Positions 12,569-51,844 of a stretch of 56,817 nucleotides of DNA are shown here, one piece after another. Each line of letters opens with the position of its first letter. The stretch's first letter is position 1. The notes below the pieces were generated by a model. The model was not told where the DNA came from and did no database searches. It saw only the letters and a program-made list of their open reading frames with translations. The translations under genes and the position numbers were made by a program. Source of the DNA: a bacterium (GTDB lineage Bacteria > RBG-13-66-14); the NCBI GenBank assembly GCA_035528375.1, contig DATKYS010000113.1, positions 1-56,817 on the forward strand, given 5' to 3'.

Positions 12569-14533
12569 ATGAACCAATTCCGCCCAGCCAACCAGACCGA
12601 CGGACCCGCACGCAGGCGGCTCCGCATCGTTTTCATTCTGATGGGTGTGGCGCTGGTCGTCATCAGCGGGCGCCTGGTTCAGCTCCAGCTCGTCCGCGGC
12701 GCCGAGCTCGCCCAGCAGGCCCGCGGTCAGCAGGTGACGCGGGTTCCCCTGGTGGGGCTCCGGGGAACCATCTACGACCGGAACGGCATCCCGCTGGCCC
12801 TGGACCGGGAATCGCCCACCGCCTTCGCCGCCCCCAACGAAATCGAGCCCGAGGAGAAGGGGCGCGTGGCCGAGGAGCTGGCGGGGATTTTGGGGCTCTC
12901 CGCGGAGGACACGCGCCGGTTGCTCGAACGGGACTCCTACTTCGTATGGCTCTCCCGGCACCTCGACGCCGAAACCGCCGACAGACTGCGCCAGGCGTCC
13001 CTCCCCGGGGTGTACGTGAGGCAGGAGCCCTCACGGCTCTACCCGCTCGGGCGCACCGCGGCTCACGTGCTGGGCTTCGTGGGGATTGACCACCAGGGAT
13101 TGGAGGGGATGGAGCTCGCCTACGACGACCTCCTCTCGGGGGAACCGGGGTGGACGCTCAAGGTCCGGGACGCCCTCGGACGCCCGCTGTACCCCCTGGA
13201 CGAACCGAGCGCAGCGAGCTACGCCTCCGGCGAACCGAGCGAAGCGAGCTATGCCCCTGGCAAAACCCTGCAGCCGCCGCAGCGCGGCAACGACCTGCGC
13301 CTGACCATAGACTCCCGATTCCAGCACATCGTAGACCGCGAGCTGGCCTACGCCGTTGAGCGTTCGAACGGTCGGGGAGGCATGGCCGTGATGCTGGACC
13401 CCGACACCGGCGATGTGCTGGCCCTTTCCAACTACCCGTTCTTCGACCCGAACCGCTTCGGCGAGTACCCGTCCTGGGTCCGGCGCAACCGTATCGTGAC
13501 CGACGTGTACGAGCCGGGTAGCACGTTCAAGGTTTTCACCCTGGCCGCCGCCCTGGAGGAGGGGCTCGTTACACCCCAGACCGTCTTCGACACCCCCGGG
13601 GAAACCTACGTGACCGGTCGGCGGATCAGGGACAGTCTGCCCCACGACCCCCGCCTGACCGCGACCCAGATCATCGAACGGTCCTCCAACGTGGGCATCC
13701 TCCAGATCGGCCTGAAGGTCGGGCGGGATAAGCTGCGCGATTACCTGGGAAAATTCGGTTTCGGCGCGTTGACCGGCTTGGAGATACCCGGAGAGGTCCG
13801 GGGGATCCTCCGACCGGCCTCGGAGTGGTACCCCCTGGACACGGCCTGCGCCAGCTTCGGCCAGGGGGTGGCCGTGACGGCGATTCAGCTCGTCCGGGCC
13901 TACGCGGTCATCGCCAACGGGGGGTGGCTGGTCCAGCCGAGCATCGTGTCCCGCGAGAATTCGCGAAAACCGCGCCCCAGGCGGGTCATCAGCCCCGAAA
14001 CCGCCGCCGCCCTCCGCGAGATTCTCATCGGAGCGGTGGAGCGCGGGTTGGGCAAGGACGCCCGGGGATCGGGCTACACCATCGGGGGCAAGACGGGCAC
14101 CGCCCAGAAGGTCGGCGAGGGGGGCTATCTGGAGGGCAAGCACTACATCGCCAGCTTCATCGGCTTCGCCCCGGCACAGGACCCCGCGCTGGTCTTGTTG
14201 ATAATCGTAGACGAACCCAGGCCCATCTATGGTGGCGGACCGGTCTGCGGGCCGGCCTTCGCCAGAATCGTCAGACAGGTGCTGGCCCTCGAGGGGGTGT
14301 CGGCACCCGGGGGGGCGACGGCCCGTCTGGTGCGGGCCGACTCACCCGAGGTGCCGTGTTCCACGCCGTCGGCCGCCGGGAGCCCGTTGAACCTGTTGGG
14401 GTTGAACGCCCGGAAGGCCGCCGCGGTACTGGCCGCCAGGGGGGTGCCCGTGGAAATGCACGGAAGCGGTCGGGTGGTCGCGGTATCCACCGGCGGGGAC
14501 GCCCTGTCGGTCCAGCTGGCGGGCTCGAGGTGA
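12569..14533 (+). CDS. ftsI: Penicillin-binding protein 3 / FtsI with in-frame R1 repeat
   Basis: A 654-residue septal peptidoglycan transpeptidase. A single membrane anchor at about residues 18-36 is followed by a dimerisation domain and a transpeptidase domain with nucleophile Ser318 (S-T-F-K), S372-S-N374 and K508-T-G. The C-terminus is a PASTA-like segment (LLGLNARKAAAVLAARGVPV). Residues 211-232 (13199-13264) are two tandem copies of the dispersed repeat R1, placed in the loop before the NDLRLTIDSR strand, where they extend the protein without breaking frame. The start ATG at 12569 lacks a clear Shine-Dalgarno. The stop overlaps the murF start in GTGA. murE, which usually follows, is absent. 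Confidence 0.95.
   Translation: MNQFRPANQTDGPARRRLRIVFILMGVALVVISGRLVQLQLVRGAELAQQARGQQVTRVPLVGLRGTIYDRNGIPLALDRESPTAFAAPNEIEPEEKGRVAEELAGILGLSAEDTRRLLERDSYFVWLSRHLDAETADRLRQASLPGVYVRQEPSRLYPLGRTAAHVLGFVGIDHQGLEGMELAYDDLLSGEPGWTLKVRDALGRPLYPLDEPSAASYASGEPSEASYAPGKTLQPPQRGNDLRLTIDSRFQHIVDRELAYAVERSNGRGGMAVMLDPDTGDVLALSNYPFFDPNRFGEYPSWVRRNRIVTDVYEPGSTFKVFTLAAALEEGLVTPQTVFDTPGETYVTGRRIRDSLPHDPRLTATQIIERSSNVGILQIGLKVGRDKLRDYLGKFGFGALTGLEIPGEVRGILRPASEWYPLDTACASFGQGVAVTAIQLVRAYAVIANGGWLVQPSIVSRENSRKPRPRRVISPETAAALREILIGAVERGLGKDARGSGYTIGGKTGTAQKVGEGGYLEGKHYIASFIGFAPAQDPALVLLIIVDEPRPIYGGGPVCGPAFARIVRQVLALEGVSAPGGATARLVRADSPEVPCSTPSAAGSPLNLLGLNARKAAAVLAARGVPVEMHGSGRVVAVSTGGDALSVQLAGSR
13199..13264 (+). 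repeat. R1 repeat, two tandem 30-bp copies inside ftsI
   Basis: Two units with a period of exactly 30 bases (13201 and 13231), core CCGAGCGAAGCGAGC then CCCCTGGC or CCTCCGGC. They encode EPSAASYASG and EPSEASYAPG. Confidence 0.95.
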
Positions 14534-45806: not shown

Positions 45807-46637
45807 CTACTCCGGCCTGTGCGCGAGGAAGGCCCGGGCGCCGGACCCCTCGCCGTACGGGCGGACCTCGACCCCGGTGAAGCCCGCCTCCTCCATGAGG
45901 GCGGTCAGCCCCTCCGCGGTGAAGTGGTGCAGGTGGTGGTCTTTCGACCCGCGCAGGAGCCGTTTGAACGACCGCAGGGGATGCCGGAGCGCGGAGCCCA
46001 GACGTTTCCCGAAGGGCCTCCGGAGCGTTCTCTCCTCACCCGAAAGCCCCGTGCAGTGCAGGATGACCAGCGCGCGTCCGCCCGGCTTCAGGCAGCGGCG
46101 CCCCTCGACGAGCACCCGCCGGGGGTCCAGGGCGTGGTCCAGCGTCGCGGCGCAGACGAATTCGTCGAAAACCGCGTCCCGGTAAGGCAGTTCCTCGCCG
46201 AAGCCGGCCACGAAGGTCATCGGACGTTCCAGCGCCCCGCCGTACAGCTCCCGGTAGACGGGCGGGGGTCCGGTGAGGAAACGCTCCAGGGCGGGGTCGT
46301 GGACGACGAAAAGGGAATCGCCGCCCGCGCTCCACCACATCCGCAAGAGCCCCCAGCCGCCGCCCACGTCCAGGACGTCCCCCTTCAGAGGCCCCCGGTG
46401 ATCGAAGAGCTCGGCCAGGCGGGCGATACTCTCGGCGACGTACTCCCGGTTCACCCCGGCCTGCTCCCGGGTCCAGTCGAGGAACTCGCCCTGAAAGGAG
46501 CCCCAGCGCCGCCATAGGTCGTCGTCCACCTCGGGCAGCCGGTCGTCCAGCAGGCGGACGAGTGTCGGCGCCCGGGACAGGTCGTAGCGCGGCACCTCTT
46601 CATCCCGGAACAGCGAAATCACCGATCGGTCACTCAC
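45807..46637 (-). CDS. Class I SAM-dependent methyltransferase (type 11)
   Basis: A 276-residue methyltransferase with the SAM-binding motif I VLDVGGGWGLLR, motif II region EELPYRDAVFDEFVCAATLD and post-motif LKPGGRALVILHC. The substrate cannot be told from sequence. The GTG at 46637 follows GGAGGCCGCCC and overlaps the stop of the upstream transglycosylase gene by eight bases, so the two are coupled. That hints at an envelope-related role. Confidence 0.82.
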   Translation of the reverse strand: MSDRSVISLFRDEEVPRYDLSRAPTLVRLLDDRLPEVDDDLWRRWGSFQGEFLDWTREQAGVNREYVAESIARLAELFDHRGPLKGDVLDVGGGWGLLRMWWSAGGDSLFVVHDPALERFLTGPPPVYRELYGGALERPMTFVAGFGEELPYRDAVFDEFVCAATLDHALDPRRVLVEGRRCLKPGGRALVILHCTGLSGEERTLRRPFGKRLGSALRHPLRSFKRLLRGSKDHHLHHFTAEGLTALMEEAGFTGVEVRPYGEGSGARAFLAHRPE

Positions 46638-49494
46638 GGGCGGCCTCCTCCTCAATCACGGCCCCCTCGCCCACGAAGGCCTCTTCCTCCAACTGCTCGG
46701 CATCACCGGAAATCTCAGCCTCTTCGGCCAGCTCGGCCCGCGTGACGCCCCGGGAGGCCAGCATATCGAACGCCCGCTCGCGGAAAATATACTCGCCGGA
46801 CTTCCAGAACAGAGGGACGTTGCGCTCCATGCCGCCGACGTAACCGATGACCTCTTTCTCGAGCTTCATGAGCGCCGCCCGGGCCCAGTCGCCGCCCGCG
46901 CCCCGGTTTATCCAGAACGGCCCCAGCATCCGGAATATCTGGTACAGCCGCTCCTCGCCGCCCGGGTAGCTCTCGCAGGGGAAGTGGTACTCCCCGGCGA
47001 TGTACCGGCGGAGGTCGTAGGCGAAACGGATGAGGAAAGGCTCTATGTCCCCGCCGCAGGGGCCGAAGAAGTAGTCCAGCCCCGGCAGACCGGGGTAATC
47101 CATGTCGAACTCCGGTGGACCGCTCCACGGGAAATCGGCGGGCACCGGTGTTTCTTCGGGCTCCAGGATAATCTCGCCCTCCTCGGTCACCCCCTCCACC
47201 GCGAGCTCCTCCTCGATGCGCCCGACGGCCTCGGCCGCGGCGAGCTGCTGCCTGTAGTACGCCGCCTCGTTCACCCCCGAGGGCGGCGGCGGAATCGTCG
47301 AGTAAACGTCGCGCAGGATGACCTTGACCCCGTAGGGGCCCGCGTTGTACATCGCCCCGGCCAGCTTCAGCCGCAGGAGACTGGCCCACTCGGTGGTGAA
47401 ATCGAAGCAACCGCCGGGAAGGAGGTTGTCCTGAAAACGGGGGTCGAAACCCCAGCGGCTCTGCTCGGCCAACAGCCCCTTCAGGTAGCTGATGCCCACC
47501 TGGAGGTTCAAATCGGCGATGTATCGCAGGTCGTAGCGCGTTTCCTGGGGCAGGGTGCCGAAGGGTACCCTTCGCCTGACGCCGGCGTCATCGTACTCCA
47601 GGAGGTAATTCCCCCCTTTGACAACGGCGCCGGTGAGCTGCATGTACCCCGTGGCCGAGCCGTGGCCGTAGGCGGCGCGGTAGCTGCGTCCCGAGCCCAG
47701 CACGTGCATCAGGCCGCACTCCTGGTAGCTCACCGCCAGGCAGAAGGCGCGGAAGGCCTCGTCTGAGATGTCGTAGCGCTTGGTGTAATCCAACCCGGCC
47801 GCGCGGTCATCCGGGGAGAAGAAACCGGGGTGGGGCCGACCGTCGGGACGCTCGGAATTTATCCTGGCGCAGATGTCCACGAACCGGTGCCACAGGCTGC
47901 GGGACGGGTTGTCCGCGTCGTAGGTCGGGATGTTGTCGAAGTCGGCCAGGGTCCACCTTCCGGGGAGACCGGGCAGCTCGAACCGGATGCTCTGGAGCCG
48001 GGCGAAGGTCTCCGGGCCGACGACGCGGGCGAGATACGCCCGGGGCACCGCCCCCCCCTCCCGACCTCCCCCCAGGTTCGAGTAACGGGCCAGGAAGGAC
48101 TCCTCGGTTGGCGCCGGATAGGGGAACCGCTCCCGGAAGGCGGCGAGCAGACGGACCAGCTCGGCGTCGAAGCGGCCGGAGGAATCACGGCAGGAATCGA
48201 ACTGCGCGCCGTCTATCTCGGCGGCGGTGGTGAGCGCCAGGTTGAGCTGACGCTTCAGGTAGGCCAGAACCGGGCTGTCATACCCTACCGCGTCGGTCAC
48301 GCCGGGCTGGTAGTAGAGGCAGGGGAAATCCTCGCGCACGAGGACGATTCGCGCCGGGCCAAGCGTCGGCGTGAGGGCGCGAGGGGTCTTGTGGCCGAAG
48401 AGGGGACGACCATCGGCGTCGGTGAGGGCGACCAGGACGAACGGCTCGCCGTCGGGGCCGTCGGGAGAGTACGGACCAGGCAGGACCGCAAGGTGCGCCA
48501 AACGCGATTCATCGTTCCAGTCGCAGGTGCTGAAACGGCCGTCAGGCGACTCCACCACAAGCTCGACCACGTAATCCCCGTAGGGAACCGGTTGCCCCCG
48601 GAACTCACCCTGGTTGGCCACGCCGTTCCACCGGAAGACGTTCACCGCGAGGCGTCCCAGGCGGTGCCGGTCCCCGTAATCGCTCACCGGCGCGTCGGTG
48701 TCGGCGGAGAAGACCAGGTTTAACCTACGGCTCGGCCTACGCTCGCGGGAAGGCGAAAGACGCCAGACGTTCAACGTGACCCGGTCGGAGGGATCGGGGA
48801 TGGGGTCCAGGTGGTATCGGATGGGGTGGTCGGGGCCGTCGGAAGGAGTAGGGATGCAGCGGAGGTCGGCCTCGCGCACGTTGGCCACCAGGTAGCCGGA
48901 GTTGTCCCAGTACGGGATGGTGTTCTCGGCGAACCCCCTGTTCCAGGTGTCGTATACGCTGGCCGTGAGCGGTTTTCCCTCGCCGGCCACGTAGAAGGTG
49001 TAGCGGTGGTTCTCCAGGTCGAGCCGCTGGGCGCGCAATAGACGACCGCCCAGGACCACCGAGGGCCGCAGGGAGTCGAACTCGCCCGACACGCTGGCGA
49101 ACTGGGCGTCGGCCAGGCCACCGAACCGGAAGCGGTAAACCCCGCTCACCGTGATTTTAAAAAGCCGGCCCTGGGCCAGCGGCATGGAGGTTTGGACGAC
49201 CTCCCCCGAGGACGGGATGGCGAGCTCGAAGGCGTCGAAGGAGGGAACGGGGATGAGGAAGAGGACGACCGCCACGAAAAGACCGAGGAGCAGGAAGCCT
49301 TTGTCCACCTTGAACTCGGTACGCTCCCGCCTCCACTCGGCGGCCAGGAAGCGACCGAGGCGGTGGTAAGCGGCCCCGAGAGCGCGGCGGAAGCGGCGAA
49401 AAATACCGGGCTTTTTGCCGGAGCTTAACTCGCTTCGCTTCGTTTCGGGCGCCGGTTCCGTCGCGGAGGGCTGTTCGTGAAAGGCCGATTCCAT
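46630..49494 (-). CDS. Large membrane-anchored lytic transglycosylase-like protein
   Basis: A 954-residue protein. The N-terminal cytoplasmic part (1-65) is basic and includes KRSELSSGKKPG, encoded by an R1 copy. One transmembrane segment lies at about 66-82. A long beta-rich ectodomain follows, with an R2 insertion at about residues 249-260. A lysozyme-like SLT domain occupies about 580-720: SYQECGLMHVL (Glu592 as catalytic acid), GYMQLTG, NLQVGISYLKGLL, AGAMYNAGPYG. The C-terminal 230 residues are acidic. It probably cleaves peptidoglycan glycan strands, but the family and partner are unclear. The ectodomain is not one I recognise. Confidence 0.75.
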   Translation of the reverse strand: MESAFHEQPSATEPAPETKRSELSSGKKPGIFRRFRRALGAAYHRLGRFLAAEWRRERTEFKVDKGFLLLGLFVAVVLFLIPVPSFDAFELAIPSSGEVVQTSMPLAQGRLFKITVSGVYRFRFGGLADAQFASVSGEFDSLRPSVVLGGRLLRAQRLDLENHRYTFYVAGEGKPLTASVYDTWNRGFAENTIPYWDNSGYLVANVREADLRCIPTPSDGPDHPIRYHLDPIPDPSDRVTLNVWRLSPSRERRPSRRLNLVFSADTDAPVSDYGDRHRLGRLAVNVFRWNGVANQGEFRGQPVPYGDYVVELVVESPDGRFSTCDWNDESRLAHLAVLPGPYSPDGPDGEPFVLVALTDADGRPLFGHKTPRALTPTLGPARIVLVREDFPCLYYQPGVTDAVGYDSPVLAYLKRQLNLALTTAAEIDGAQFDSCRDSSGRFDAELVRLLAAFRERFPYPAPTEESFLARYSNLGGGREGGAVPRAYLARVVGPETFARLQSIRFELPGLPGRWTLADFDNIPTYDADNPSRSLWHRFVDICARINSERPDGRPHPGFFSPDDRAAGLDYTKRYDISDEAFRAFCLAVSYQECGLMHVLGSGRSYRAAYGHGSATGYMQLTGAVVKGGNYLLEYDDAGVRRRVPFGTLPQETRYDLRYIADLNLQVGISYLKGLLAEQSRWGFDPRFQDNLLPGGCFDFTTEWASLLRLKLAGAMYNAGPYGVKVILRDVYSTIPPPPSGVNEAAYYRQQLAAAEAVGRIEEELAVEGVTEEGEIILEPEETPVPADFPWSGPPEFDMDYPGLPGLDYFFGPCGGDIEPFLIRFAYDLRRYIAGEYHFPCESYPGGEERLYQIFRMLGPFWINRGAGGDWARAALMKLEKEVIGYVGGMERNVPLFWKSGEYIFRERAFDMLASRGVTRAELAEEAEISGDAEQLEEEAFVGEGAVIEEEAARE
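48716..48750 (-). repeat. R2 repeat inside the transglycosylase gene
   Basis: Plus-strand text AGGTTTAACCTACGGCTCGG followed by CCTACGCTC. The gene reads it as RERRPSRRLNL. Same frame as both copies in the phosphatase gene. Confidence 0.9.
49415..49445 (-). repeat. R1 repeat inside the transglycosylase N-terminus
   Basis: One copy in minus orientation (TTGCCGGAGCTTAACTCGCT then TCGCTTCGTTT), read as KRSELSSGK. Confidence 0.88.
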
Positions 49495-49509: not shown

Positions 49510-50793
49510 CTACCCGTCCACCGTTTCCCCGGAGGCGATCTCGCGGTCGTGGAAGGCCCTGGGGTCGGTGACGTCGGGGAACACGCAGGCGTTGCGCCCG
49601 ATGGAGGTGCCGCGCGGAATCACGGCGTTCTTTCCGATGACCGCCATCCCGGAGTTGTAGATCGAGGGGAAGCGCTGGTTGTAGGTGAAGTCGTCGCCGG
49701 TGCCCACCAGGCTCTCGGCCCCCACGATGACCTCCTTGTCGAGGATGGCGTGGTCCACCTGGACCCCCTCCTCGATGACCGTCCCGGAGAAGACTATCGA
49801 GTCGCGCACCACCGCTCCGGAGCCTATCTCGACGTAGGGTGAAAGGATGCTCCGGGCGACCAGTCCGTCCACCACGCACCCGTTGGACACCAGGCTTTCG
49901 GTAACCTGAGCCCCCCGGCCCAGCTTCACCGCCGGGGCCTCCGCCGAGCGGGTGTGCACCCTCGATTTTTCATCGTAGAGGTCGAACTCGGGGACGGGCG
50001 CGATGAGGTCCATGTTGGCCTGCCAGTAGCTTTCTATCGTCCCCACGTCGCGCCAGTATTTCTCCCGGAACAAAAACGCGCGGAAGGGTATGCTCCGCGT
50101 AACTTGAAGTTCGACGCAGCGCGGCAGCACGTCGCGACCGAAATCGTGCTCCGAGTCGTCCCTTCCCGCATCCTCCACGAGAAGCTCCTCCAGGAGGGCG
50201 GTGTCGAACACGTAGATGCCCATGTTGGCCAGGTTGGACGGCGGGTCGGGCACCTTCTCTAAAAAGCTCACGACGTTCCCCGAAGCGTCTGTCTCGATGA
50301 CGCCGTAGCGCGGGGCGTCCTCCCGGGGAACCTCCATGGCCGCCATCGTCACCCCGGAGCCGGACTCCACGTGCTCTTTTATCATGCGAGAGTAGTCCAT
50401 CCTGTACACGTGGTCGCCGGAAAGGATGAGAACCAACTCCGGCTTGACGGAGCGGATGAAGGGGAGATTCGTGTACACGGCGTCCGCCGTGCCGCGGTAC
50501 CACCCGCCGAGCCCACCGCCCGGGTGTGGGTGCAGAAGTACGAGTCCGCCATCAAATCGCTTCAGGTCCCAGGGCGCCCCGCGACCGAGGTGGGACTGCA
50601 GGGAGTGGGGACGGTACTGGGTCAGGACGCAGACGTTGTAAATGAGCGAGTTGACGCAGTTGGAGAGGGTGAAGTCTATGATGCGGTACTTGCCGCCGAA
50701 AGGCACCGCCGGTTTGGTGCGCTTGGCGGTCAGGACCCCCAACCGGTTGCCCCTGCCGCCCGCCAGTATCACCGCCAGCGTTCTAAGTGCCAT
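49510..50793 (-). CDS. glgC: Glucose-1-phosphate adenylyltransferase
   Basis: A 427-residue ADP-glucose pyrophosphorylase for glycogen synthesis. The N-terminal nucleotidyltransferase motif is VILAGGRGNRLGVLTAKRTK, with KPAVPFGGKYRIIDFTLSN, GTADAVYTN and ILSGDHVYRMDY; the C-terminal half is a left-handed beta-helix with hexapeptide repeats. The ATG at 50793 overlaps the phosphatase stop by 11 bases, so the two are coupled. glgA and glgB are not in the window. Confidence 0.94.
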   Translation of the reverse strand: MALRTLAVILAGGRGNRLGVLTAKRTKPAVPFGGKYRIIDFTLSNCVNSLIYNVCVLTQYRPHSLQSHLGRGAPWDLKRFDGGLVLLHPHPGGGLGGWYRGTADAVYTNLPFIRSVKPELVLILSGDHVYRMDYSRMIKEHVESGSGVTMAAMEVPREDAPRYGVIETDASGNVVSFLEKVPDPPSNLANMGIYVFDTALLEELLVEDAGRDDSEHDFGRDVLPRCVELQVTRSIPFRAFLFREKYWRDVGTIESYWQANMDLIAPVPEFDLYDEKSRVHTRSAEAPAVKLGRGAQVTESLVSNGCVVDGLVARSILSPYVEIGSGAVVRDSIVFSGTVIEEGVQVDHAILDKEVIVGAESLVGTGDDFTYNQRFPSIYNSGMAVIGKNAVIPRGTSIGRNACVFPDVTDPRAFHDREIASGETVDG

Positions 50794-51844
50794 GTCCGAA
50801 ACCCTTCGAGGGTAAGGTGGCCGGTTTATCGCCTCCGAGGGCGACAGCCGCCCCGTGCTTCAGGTCGTAATCCGATACCAGGAGGTTTAACCTACGGCCC
50901 GGCCTACGCCCGTCGTCGCCCAGGTGCGCCAGGAGCGTCTCGAGGACCAGGGCCCCGGCGACGATAATCTCCGCGCGTCGCTCGTCGGTCGGCAGCAGCC
51001 GCTTACGTTCGGCGAGGGGAACACCCGCCAGGCGTTCGATGAGCGCCGCCAGGTCGCCCCGGCTCAACGGCGTGCCCTGGATGACCAGGGGCAGATACTC
51101 ATTCAAGCCCAGGTGCAGCGCCGCCAGGGCGGTCGCCGTGCCGCCGGAAGCGACGACGGGTAAATCGTGGGTATCCATAGGCAACCGGCTGAACACGGCC
51201 CGGACACCATCCCTGAGCTCCCCCATCTCCCCGGGCGCGGGAGGGTCGGTGTGGAAATGACGGCCGGTGAGGTTTATCGCCCCCAGGGGGAAGGATCGGG
51301 TGAATAGGTTTAACCTACGGCTCGGCCTGCGCTCCCGACCGCCTTTTGGGGGCAAGGGGTTTAAACCCCTCGTCTCCTCACATCCCCACCAGGAAAACTC
51401 CGTGGATCCGCCCCCCACGTCCACGGCCAGATACACCCGCCCGTCCAGGTCCAGACAGCGTAGCCCTTCGTCCACCCCCACCCGTGTCAGCCAGGCCTCG
51501 TCGGGACCGGAGAGGAGCGTGAGCTCCACGCCCCAGCGGGATTTCAGCGCGTCCGCCAGAGTCTCGACGCCGGGCAGCTCGCGGGCGAAGTGGGTGGCGA
51601 CGGCCAGGGTGCGGTTTACTCCCAGCTCACGCCCGCGTGCGATCGCCTCCCGTGTGGCCGCCAGCGTGTTTTCGACGGCCTCCATCGAAACACGGCCGTC
51701 CTCCCCCGGCCTGCCGAGCCCGGTCGAGCGCCCGCCGCTCTCCACGGGCCCCAACGGCGCGTCCGTCCCCCGCGAGTCCACCCGGTCCACCACGAGCCAG
51801 CGCAGGGAGTTGGAGCCGTAATCCAGAACGAGGATGCGGCTCAT
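50783..51844 (-). CDS. Ppx/GppA-family phosphatase carrying three repeat insertions
   Basis: A 353-residue protein of the exopolyphosphatase / pppGpp phosphatase family, with the actin-like fold. LVLDYGSNSLRWLVVD is phosphate-1 and AVDVGGGSTEFSW is phosphate-2; RSFPLGAINLT and SDYDLKHG are further family marks. Between phosphate-2 and RSFPLG about 27 residues come from R3 (ETRGLNPLPPKGG) and R2 (RERRPSRRLNL), and DDGRRPGRRLNL near the C-terminus is another R2 copy. The start ATG at 51844 overlaps the PfkB gene stop by four bases. Which substrate it uses cannot be told. Confidence 0.85.
   Translation of the reverse strand: MSRILVLDYGSNSLRWLVVDRVDSRGTDAPLGPVESGGRSTGLGRPGEDGRVSMEAVENTLAATREAIARGRELGVNRTLAVATHFARELPGVETLADALKSRWGVELTLLSGPDEAWLTRVGVDEGLRCLDLDGRVYLAVDVGGGSTEFSWWGCEETRGLNPLPPKGGRERRPSRRLNLFTRSFPLGAINLTGRHFHTDPPAPGEMGELRDGVRAVFSRLPMDTHDLPVVASGGTATALAALHLGLNEYLPLVIQGTPLSRGDLAALIERLAGVPLAERKRLLPTDERRAEIIVAGALVLETLLAHLGDDGRRPGRRLNLLVSDYDLKHGAAVALGGDKPATLPSKGFGHGT
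50883..50911 (-). repeat. R2 repeat, C-terminal copy in the phosphatase gene
   Basis: AGGTTTAACCTACGGCCCGG then CCTACGCCC; read as RRPGRRLNL. Confidence 0.88.
51306..51340 (-). repeat. R2 repeat, central copy in the phosphatase gene
   Basis: AGGTTTAACCTACGGCTCGG then CCTGCGCTCCCGACC; read as RERRPSRRLNL. R3 follows twelve bases later. Confidence 0.9.
51352..51374. repeat. Palindromic repeat R3 in the phosphatase gene
   Basis: CAAGGGGTTTAAACCCCTCG is palindromic around TTTAAA and is the counterpart of 28443-28463. The gene reads ETRGLNPLP from it; a comparable peptide is possible from the copy at 6025. Confidence 0.8.

Follow-up and report, generated by a model that had tools for sequence, protein, structure and literature searches.

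The Ppx/GppA-family phosphatase gene at positions 50783-51844 (minus strand, 353 amino acids) of the window, the whole 56,817-nucleotide stretch of contig DATKYS010000113.1 that was analyzed, has acquired three short in-frame insertions: two copies of a 24-bp repeat (R2) and one 42-bp insert that contains a different, palindromic repeat (R3). As judged by sequence comparison, R2 and R3 are proven insertions, because same-genus and same-family orthologs lack them at the exact positions. The gene belongs to the Ppx/GppA family, as indicated by a profile match (PF02541, E 3.6e-26) and by the conservation of the active-site residues D8, G10, T84, R88, E116, D142, G144 and S147 in a 27-sequence alignment. 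The product also matched TIGR03706 (E 2e-34, below the curated cut-off), and 2j4r and 1t6c were found as PDB relatives.

The genome that includes the window (G000) consists of 2.63 Mb in 144 contigs, and its repeats were counted by pattern searches and in a 394-kb sample. The comparison took in three congeneric genomes and others of the family; all are fragmented drafts, and the named relatives are metagenome-assembled. The three named relatives recovered with the phosphatase protein are Candidatus Coatesbacteria. At the first insertion site the relatives G001 and G003 encode WWSGRE-LLTRSF, and the window encodes WWGCEETRGLNPLPPKGGRE-RRPSRRLN-LFTRSF, a difference of 42 bp plus 24 bp. The DNA of G001 and G003 reads TGG TGG AGC GGC CGx GAG CTx. 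In the window the 42-bp insert (51344-51385, minus strand), which encodes the 14 amino acids GCEETRGLNPLPPK and includes R3, follows TGG TGG, and R2 (51307-51330, minus strand; units GCAGGCCGAGCC and GTAGGTTAAACC, read RRPSRRLN) follows GAG, the empty site being GAG|CTx. The 42-bp insert is absent from the orthologs in G001, G003, G004 and G006, and this site is unreadable in G002 due to a run of N. The second R2 copy (50884-50907, minus strand; GTAGGCCGGGCC and GTAGGTTAAACC, read RRPGRRLN) converts HLGADG-LLVSDYDL, found in G002, into HLGDDG-RRPGRRLN-LLVSDYDL. There, G002 has GAC GGC CTG TTG with the empty site GACGGC|CTG, and the window has 24 additional bp between the Gly codon and the two Leu codons; the copy is also absent from G001, G003, G004 and G006. 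These empty sites bear out the first-pass annotation, which had described two repeats inserted three times in one Ppx/GppA gene, all in frame and all beside conserved motifs. R2 and R3 lie in frame in intact open reading frames, with DVGGGSTE ahead of site 1 and VSDYDLKHG after site 2.

R2 consists of two 12-bp units, GTAGGCCGRGCC followed by GTAGGTTAAACC, and its 24 bp encode eight residues. The unit consensus is GTAGG-YYNRR-CC; in the window, every copy finishes in GTAGGTTAAACC before a T. R2 is found on the minus strand of the window at 51306-51330, 50883-50907 and 48716-48740, each copy with 0-1 mismatch, where dinucleotide shuffles lead to an expectation of 0. Two of these copies are in the phosphatase gene and the third (48717-48740, minus strand; GTAGGCCGAGCC and GTAGGTTAAACC, read RRPSRRLN) is in the gene at 46630-49494 (minus strand). 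The first-pass annotation had called the latter gene a transglycosylase, a name that found no support: Pfam gave no match to the 954-amino acid product at E<=0.001, only CATRA-N at an E of 0.13, and NCBIfam gave none. At this site no unit is present in G004 (CGCGAGC-TGGTC, GAGC|TGG) or G003 (GAAC|TGG), a single GTAGGCCGAGCC is present in G002, and the window carries two units, GTAGGCCGAGCC GTAGGTTAAACC. The series 0/0/1/2 represents growth by whole units; the region is missing from G001. The G001 ortholog of the 954-amino acid gene (G001:C333) lacks about 111 codons with a frame change at the join, a possible deletion or assembly error. Between the two genes that carry repeats is a GlgC/GlmU-like nucleotidyltransferase gene (49510-50793, minus strand; PF00483, E 3.7e-60), in which scans for R2 and R3 found neither. 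A third repeat, R1, was also observed in the window: an R1-like copy is in frame at 49413-49445, near the N-terminus of the 954-amino acid reading frame, and two in-frame R1 units (13200-13257, 30-bp spacing, GCATAGCTCGCTTCGCTCGGTTCGC) are in a penicillin-binding protein gene, where they read EPSAASYASGEPSEASYAPG between the PBP_dimer and Transpeptidase domains.

Other loci of the genome carry the same kind of unit. A gene at G000:C31:16547 includes a single inserted GTAGGTTAAACC where G001 has AAGCTGAATCTCTGC and G002 has AAGCTGAACTTATGC. This gene and another one discussed below are named GH57-like and anti-sigma-like, labels read off the sequence alone. The single-unit copies in the GH57-like gene and at the 48717 site of G002 indicate that the module is the 12-bp unit and that the 24-bp R2 is two of them. 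An array located just 3′ of a gene on contig C98 has about 3 units in G000 and 5 in G002; in G001 the contig breaks off within the array, after at least 2 whole units. The array begins at a stop codon and encodes no peptide. In the anti-sigma-like ATPase gene, site A counts 3 units for G000 and 2 for G002, and in G001 it is a single unit-length of sequence; site B, at the C-terminus, has units in antisense, one in G000 and three in G001. The site A array aligns with native G001 sequence of equal length, and the repeat there may be of native origin, not an import.

The behavior of site A, together with the variation of unit sequences between loci, is what would be expected if the arrays were tandem duplications of native 12-bp coding sequence, that is, in-gene minisatellites, and the likeness between loci were convergence on hairpin-prone GGYNNNRCC words. 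Nonetheless, the empty sites in the phosphatase and GH57-like genes offer no GTAGG that could have been duplicated; duplication of local sequence does not fit these two genes and is possible at anti-sigma site A. Moreover, the same 24-bp word with the AT-rich GTAGGTTAAACC is found at three sites, for which the chance expectation is about 2e-8 for the genome. We consider this explanation rather unlikely for R2 as a whole.

The R2 module is rare and local. The 25-mer has 4 copies in G000 at <=3 mismatches, and exact GTAGGTTAAACC occurs 5 times against about 0.1 expected, with three of the five within 2.6 kb (P 2.3e-5). A pattern search of G000 for the degenerate single 12-bp unit showed no enrichment (37 matches vs 46 for the reversed-pattern control), and the further single units that were inspected were mostly ordinary coding sequence. 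Since single units are not enriched beyond the control, the module is not broadly mobile. A 16-mer search of family and phylum relatives found an exact match in G002 only, and the exact 23-bp R2 core had 0 matches in 84,980 species genomes, a collection that may leave out G000 or very near records. The proximity of three of the five exact GTAGGTTAAACC copies favors local copying over a mobile element, although a shared regional hot spot could also be the cause of the clustering.

A mobile origin was considered in the form of a REP-like miniature element moved by the Y1/RAYT transposase of the genome. G000 encodes one Y1_Tnp (contig C91), the R2 units begin with GTAG as GTAG-tagged REPs do, and REPs have been reported inside open reading frames, sometimes two per gene (Di Nocera et al. 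2013, PMC3733652). However, the repeat on the flanks of the Y1 gene is another one, CGTAGGGGCGGACCTTCAGGTCCGCCCG, and no R1, R2 or R3 lies beside the gene. The fold of CGTAGGGGCGGACCTTCAGGTCCGCCCG is strong (-11.8 kcal/mol, z -4.9) and that of R2 weak (-3.0 kcal/mol, z -1.1; stems of 3-4 bp). The five copies of R2 are, in addition, few and clustered. An origin of this kind is improbable, and R2 as a RAYT-borne REP was rejected as the main reading because the Y1 gene adjoins another GTAG palindrome and the R2 stem is unstable. As a separate observation, the Y1/RAYT-type transposase gene is at G000:C91:11809-12126 beside this typical GTAG palindrome, and GTAG palindromes related to CGTAGGGGCGGACCTTCAGGTCCGCCCG were among the commonest repeats in a 450-kb sample.

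R3 is a palindrome of about 30 bp and is unrelated to R2. The genome has about 25 R3 sites, among them the copy in the phosphatase gene, GGAGACGAGGGGTTTAAACCCCTTGCCCCC (about 51348-51377), whose palindromic core is AAGGGGTTTAAACCCCTT. A search of G000 at <=3 mismatches gave 42 strand-wise matches, with many sites matched on both strands, and the reversed-pattern control gave 0; the 18-bp core has a chance expectation of 3e-5. The 30-bp element folds with a z of -2.3. Judged by eye, most R3 sites appear to be intergenic, preceding start codons or following genes, and the in-gene counts of R1 and R3 obtained by a codon-model coding test are lower bounds, as the test missed the R3 site of the phosphatase gene itself. 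R3 is polymorphic, since it is present in an intergenic stretch of G002 beside the C81 array and absent from the G000 counterpart. A histidine kinase reading frame at G000:C31:35307-35606 includes an in-frame R3 (RGLNPL, the frame used in the phosphatase gene) and an R2-like array (AYGATYGA) about 270 bp apart and, as read from these matches, appears to be a second gene carrying both repeats. Two further elements were noticed. An R1-R3 hybrid (GCTCGCTTCGCTCGGTTAAACCCCTTGTCTCC) is located just upstream of the ATG of the G001 GH57-like gene, so that the repeats look modular, and a conserved intergenic-looking element of about 58 bp with inverted GTAGGCCGAACC / GTAGGCTGAACC ends is found at G000:C48:23097 and G001:C340:12365.

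The first-pass annotation had also pointed out that the three R2 copies share one orientation and frame and had offered as the cause either chance or a bias, from stops or a harmful sequence in the other frames. The observation was correct for these copies and extends to a fourth, the single unit in the GH57-like gene, and the two parts of the proposed bias fared differently. In the forward direction, one frame of the R2 pair contains TAA and another TAG, which leaves RRPSRRLN as the only open reading; the reverse direction has two open frames. The shared frame is then a consequence of the stops in the other forward frames and of the codon context of the sites, which place E, G or N before Leu. 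All four in-gene TTAAACC-tailed copies of G000 are forward, but they are too few and too dependent, three being close neighbors, to be counted as an orientation bias. Related 12-bp arrays of the same genus read VGRT forward and VRPT and AYGATYGA in reverse, that is, in other frames and on the opposite strand. The 12-bp family overall is found across frames and orientations inside genes, which counts against the bias for the family but not for exact R2, with its mere 5 copies genome-wide.

A structure model of the phosphatase, proposed as a check with the first-pass annotation, placed both inserts in loops. The AlphaFold model, built with 27 sequences, had a mean pLDDT of 89 and a pTM of 0.88. 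Insert 1 is in the loop of a beta-hairpin, between strands 148-155 and 178-185, with pLDDT <50 at 158-169 and 171-174, and insert 2 is in the loop that joins helix 294-309 to strand 320-324. No homolog among the 27 aligned sequences has a loop as long as the one at the 42-bp insert site. The gene is under purifying selection: Ka was 0.11-0.13 and Ks 0.35-0.45 to G001 and G002, and Ka/Ks was about 0.25-0.37 against G001, G002 and G003 for aligned codons outside the inserts. The product has been lengthened by 30 residues, and its function, presumably including the enzyme activity, has probably been kept. The copies are beside conserved motifs and add four Arg each, in a gene under purifying selection, and the inserts might have been selected for a useful function, with the basic RRPSRRLN loops acting near the phosphate-binding motif or in complex formation. 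Neither insert, however, is present in the other 26 homologs of the alignment, insert 1 is a low-confidence loop in the model, and the other loci encode unrelated peptides (VGRT, VRPT, AYGA) or none (the C98 array). This makes selection for function highly improbable.

We hypothesize that R2 originated by local templated copying combined with unit slippage and selection, an account that we regard as reasonably likely. New copies would arise rarely and mostly near an existing one by templated copying, either template switching or short-patch recombination. The target sites (GAGC|T, GGGC|T, AACC|T) appear to resemble the tail of the unit itself: two sites of the form GAGC|T have GAGCC units, the GGGC|T site has a GGGCC unit and the AACC|T site an AAACC unit. 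The C98 array is a candidate donor, as its last two units in G000 are one base off R2. Once established, an array would gain or lose whole units by slippage, with the reading frame kept at every step because 12 is a multiple of three, and selection would retain only copies whose frame is open and whose position is a loop or turn that tolerates them. R3 would be a separate insertion-type palindrome, mostly intergenic, that occasionally lands in frame. The phosphatase gene would then be an especially affected one: a single beta-hairpin loop has both R3 and R2, and a second loop has R2. It is very unlikely that R2 is instead a minute unit that spreads by itself, its right end being fixed (GTAGGTTAAACC|T), and enters RRxC|T sites in whole 12-bp steps through enzyme-driven or hairpin-primed copying; if it were, it would be an exceptionally small, frame-neutral insertion element.

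The R2 and R3 inserts represent a variant of a known phenomenon, with parallels in Rickettsia palindromic elements, intragenic REPs and in-gene VNTRs. RPE-1 class elements are about 100-150 bp long. Like Rickettsia palindromic elements, the inserts described here are short, in frame and in unrelated conserved genes that have orthologs without them, and the protein stays intact. In contrast, R2 measures 12 or 24 bp, is not a single long palindrome with a stable hairpin, and is clustered at very low copy number. GTAG-tagged REPs associated with RAYT proteins start with GTAG, have a small palindromic core and are occasionally inserted into open reading frames, including two per gene, with ends that supply stop codons (PMC3733652), features that R2 shares. 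Unlike them, R2 lacks a stable hairpin stem beside the tag, consists of tandem 12-bp units, is of very low copy number and not dispersed, and is not near the Y1 gene of a genome that has a separate, typical GTAG REP. As in intragenic VNTRs or minisatellites, the number of whole units, each a multiple of three, differs between relatives (at 48717, in the C98 array and at anti-sigma site A). The seeding of R2 differs from that of VNTRs in that it is not duplication in place, since the same unit is found at several loci whose empty sites lack it.

The literature search made here turned up no study of repeats and palindromes in the Coatesbacteria phylum. One Candidatus Coatesbacteria phosphatase gene took three in-frame hits by small repeats in surface loops, those of R2 in whole 12-base steps, which indicates that very small repeats can make a protein longer and leave it intact. 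The series of 0, 1 and 2 units at one site, together with empty sites elsewhere, is a clean case of very short repeats adding loop residues with the frame intact. If the copying mechanism proposed here is true, it would constitute a small route to protein insertions and deletions, and would call for caution in reading loop insertions in uncultured lineages.
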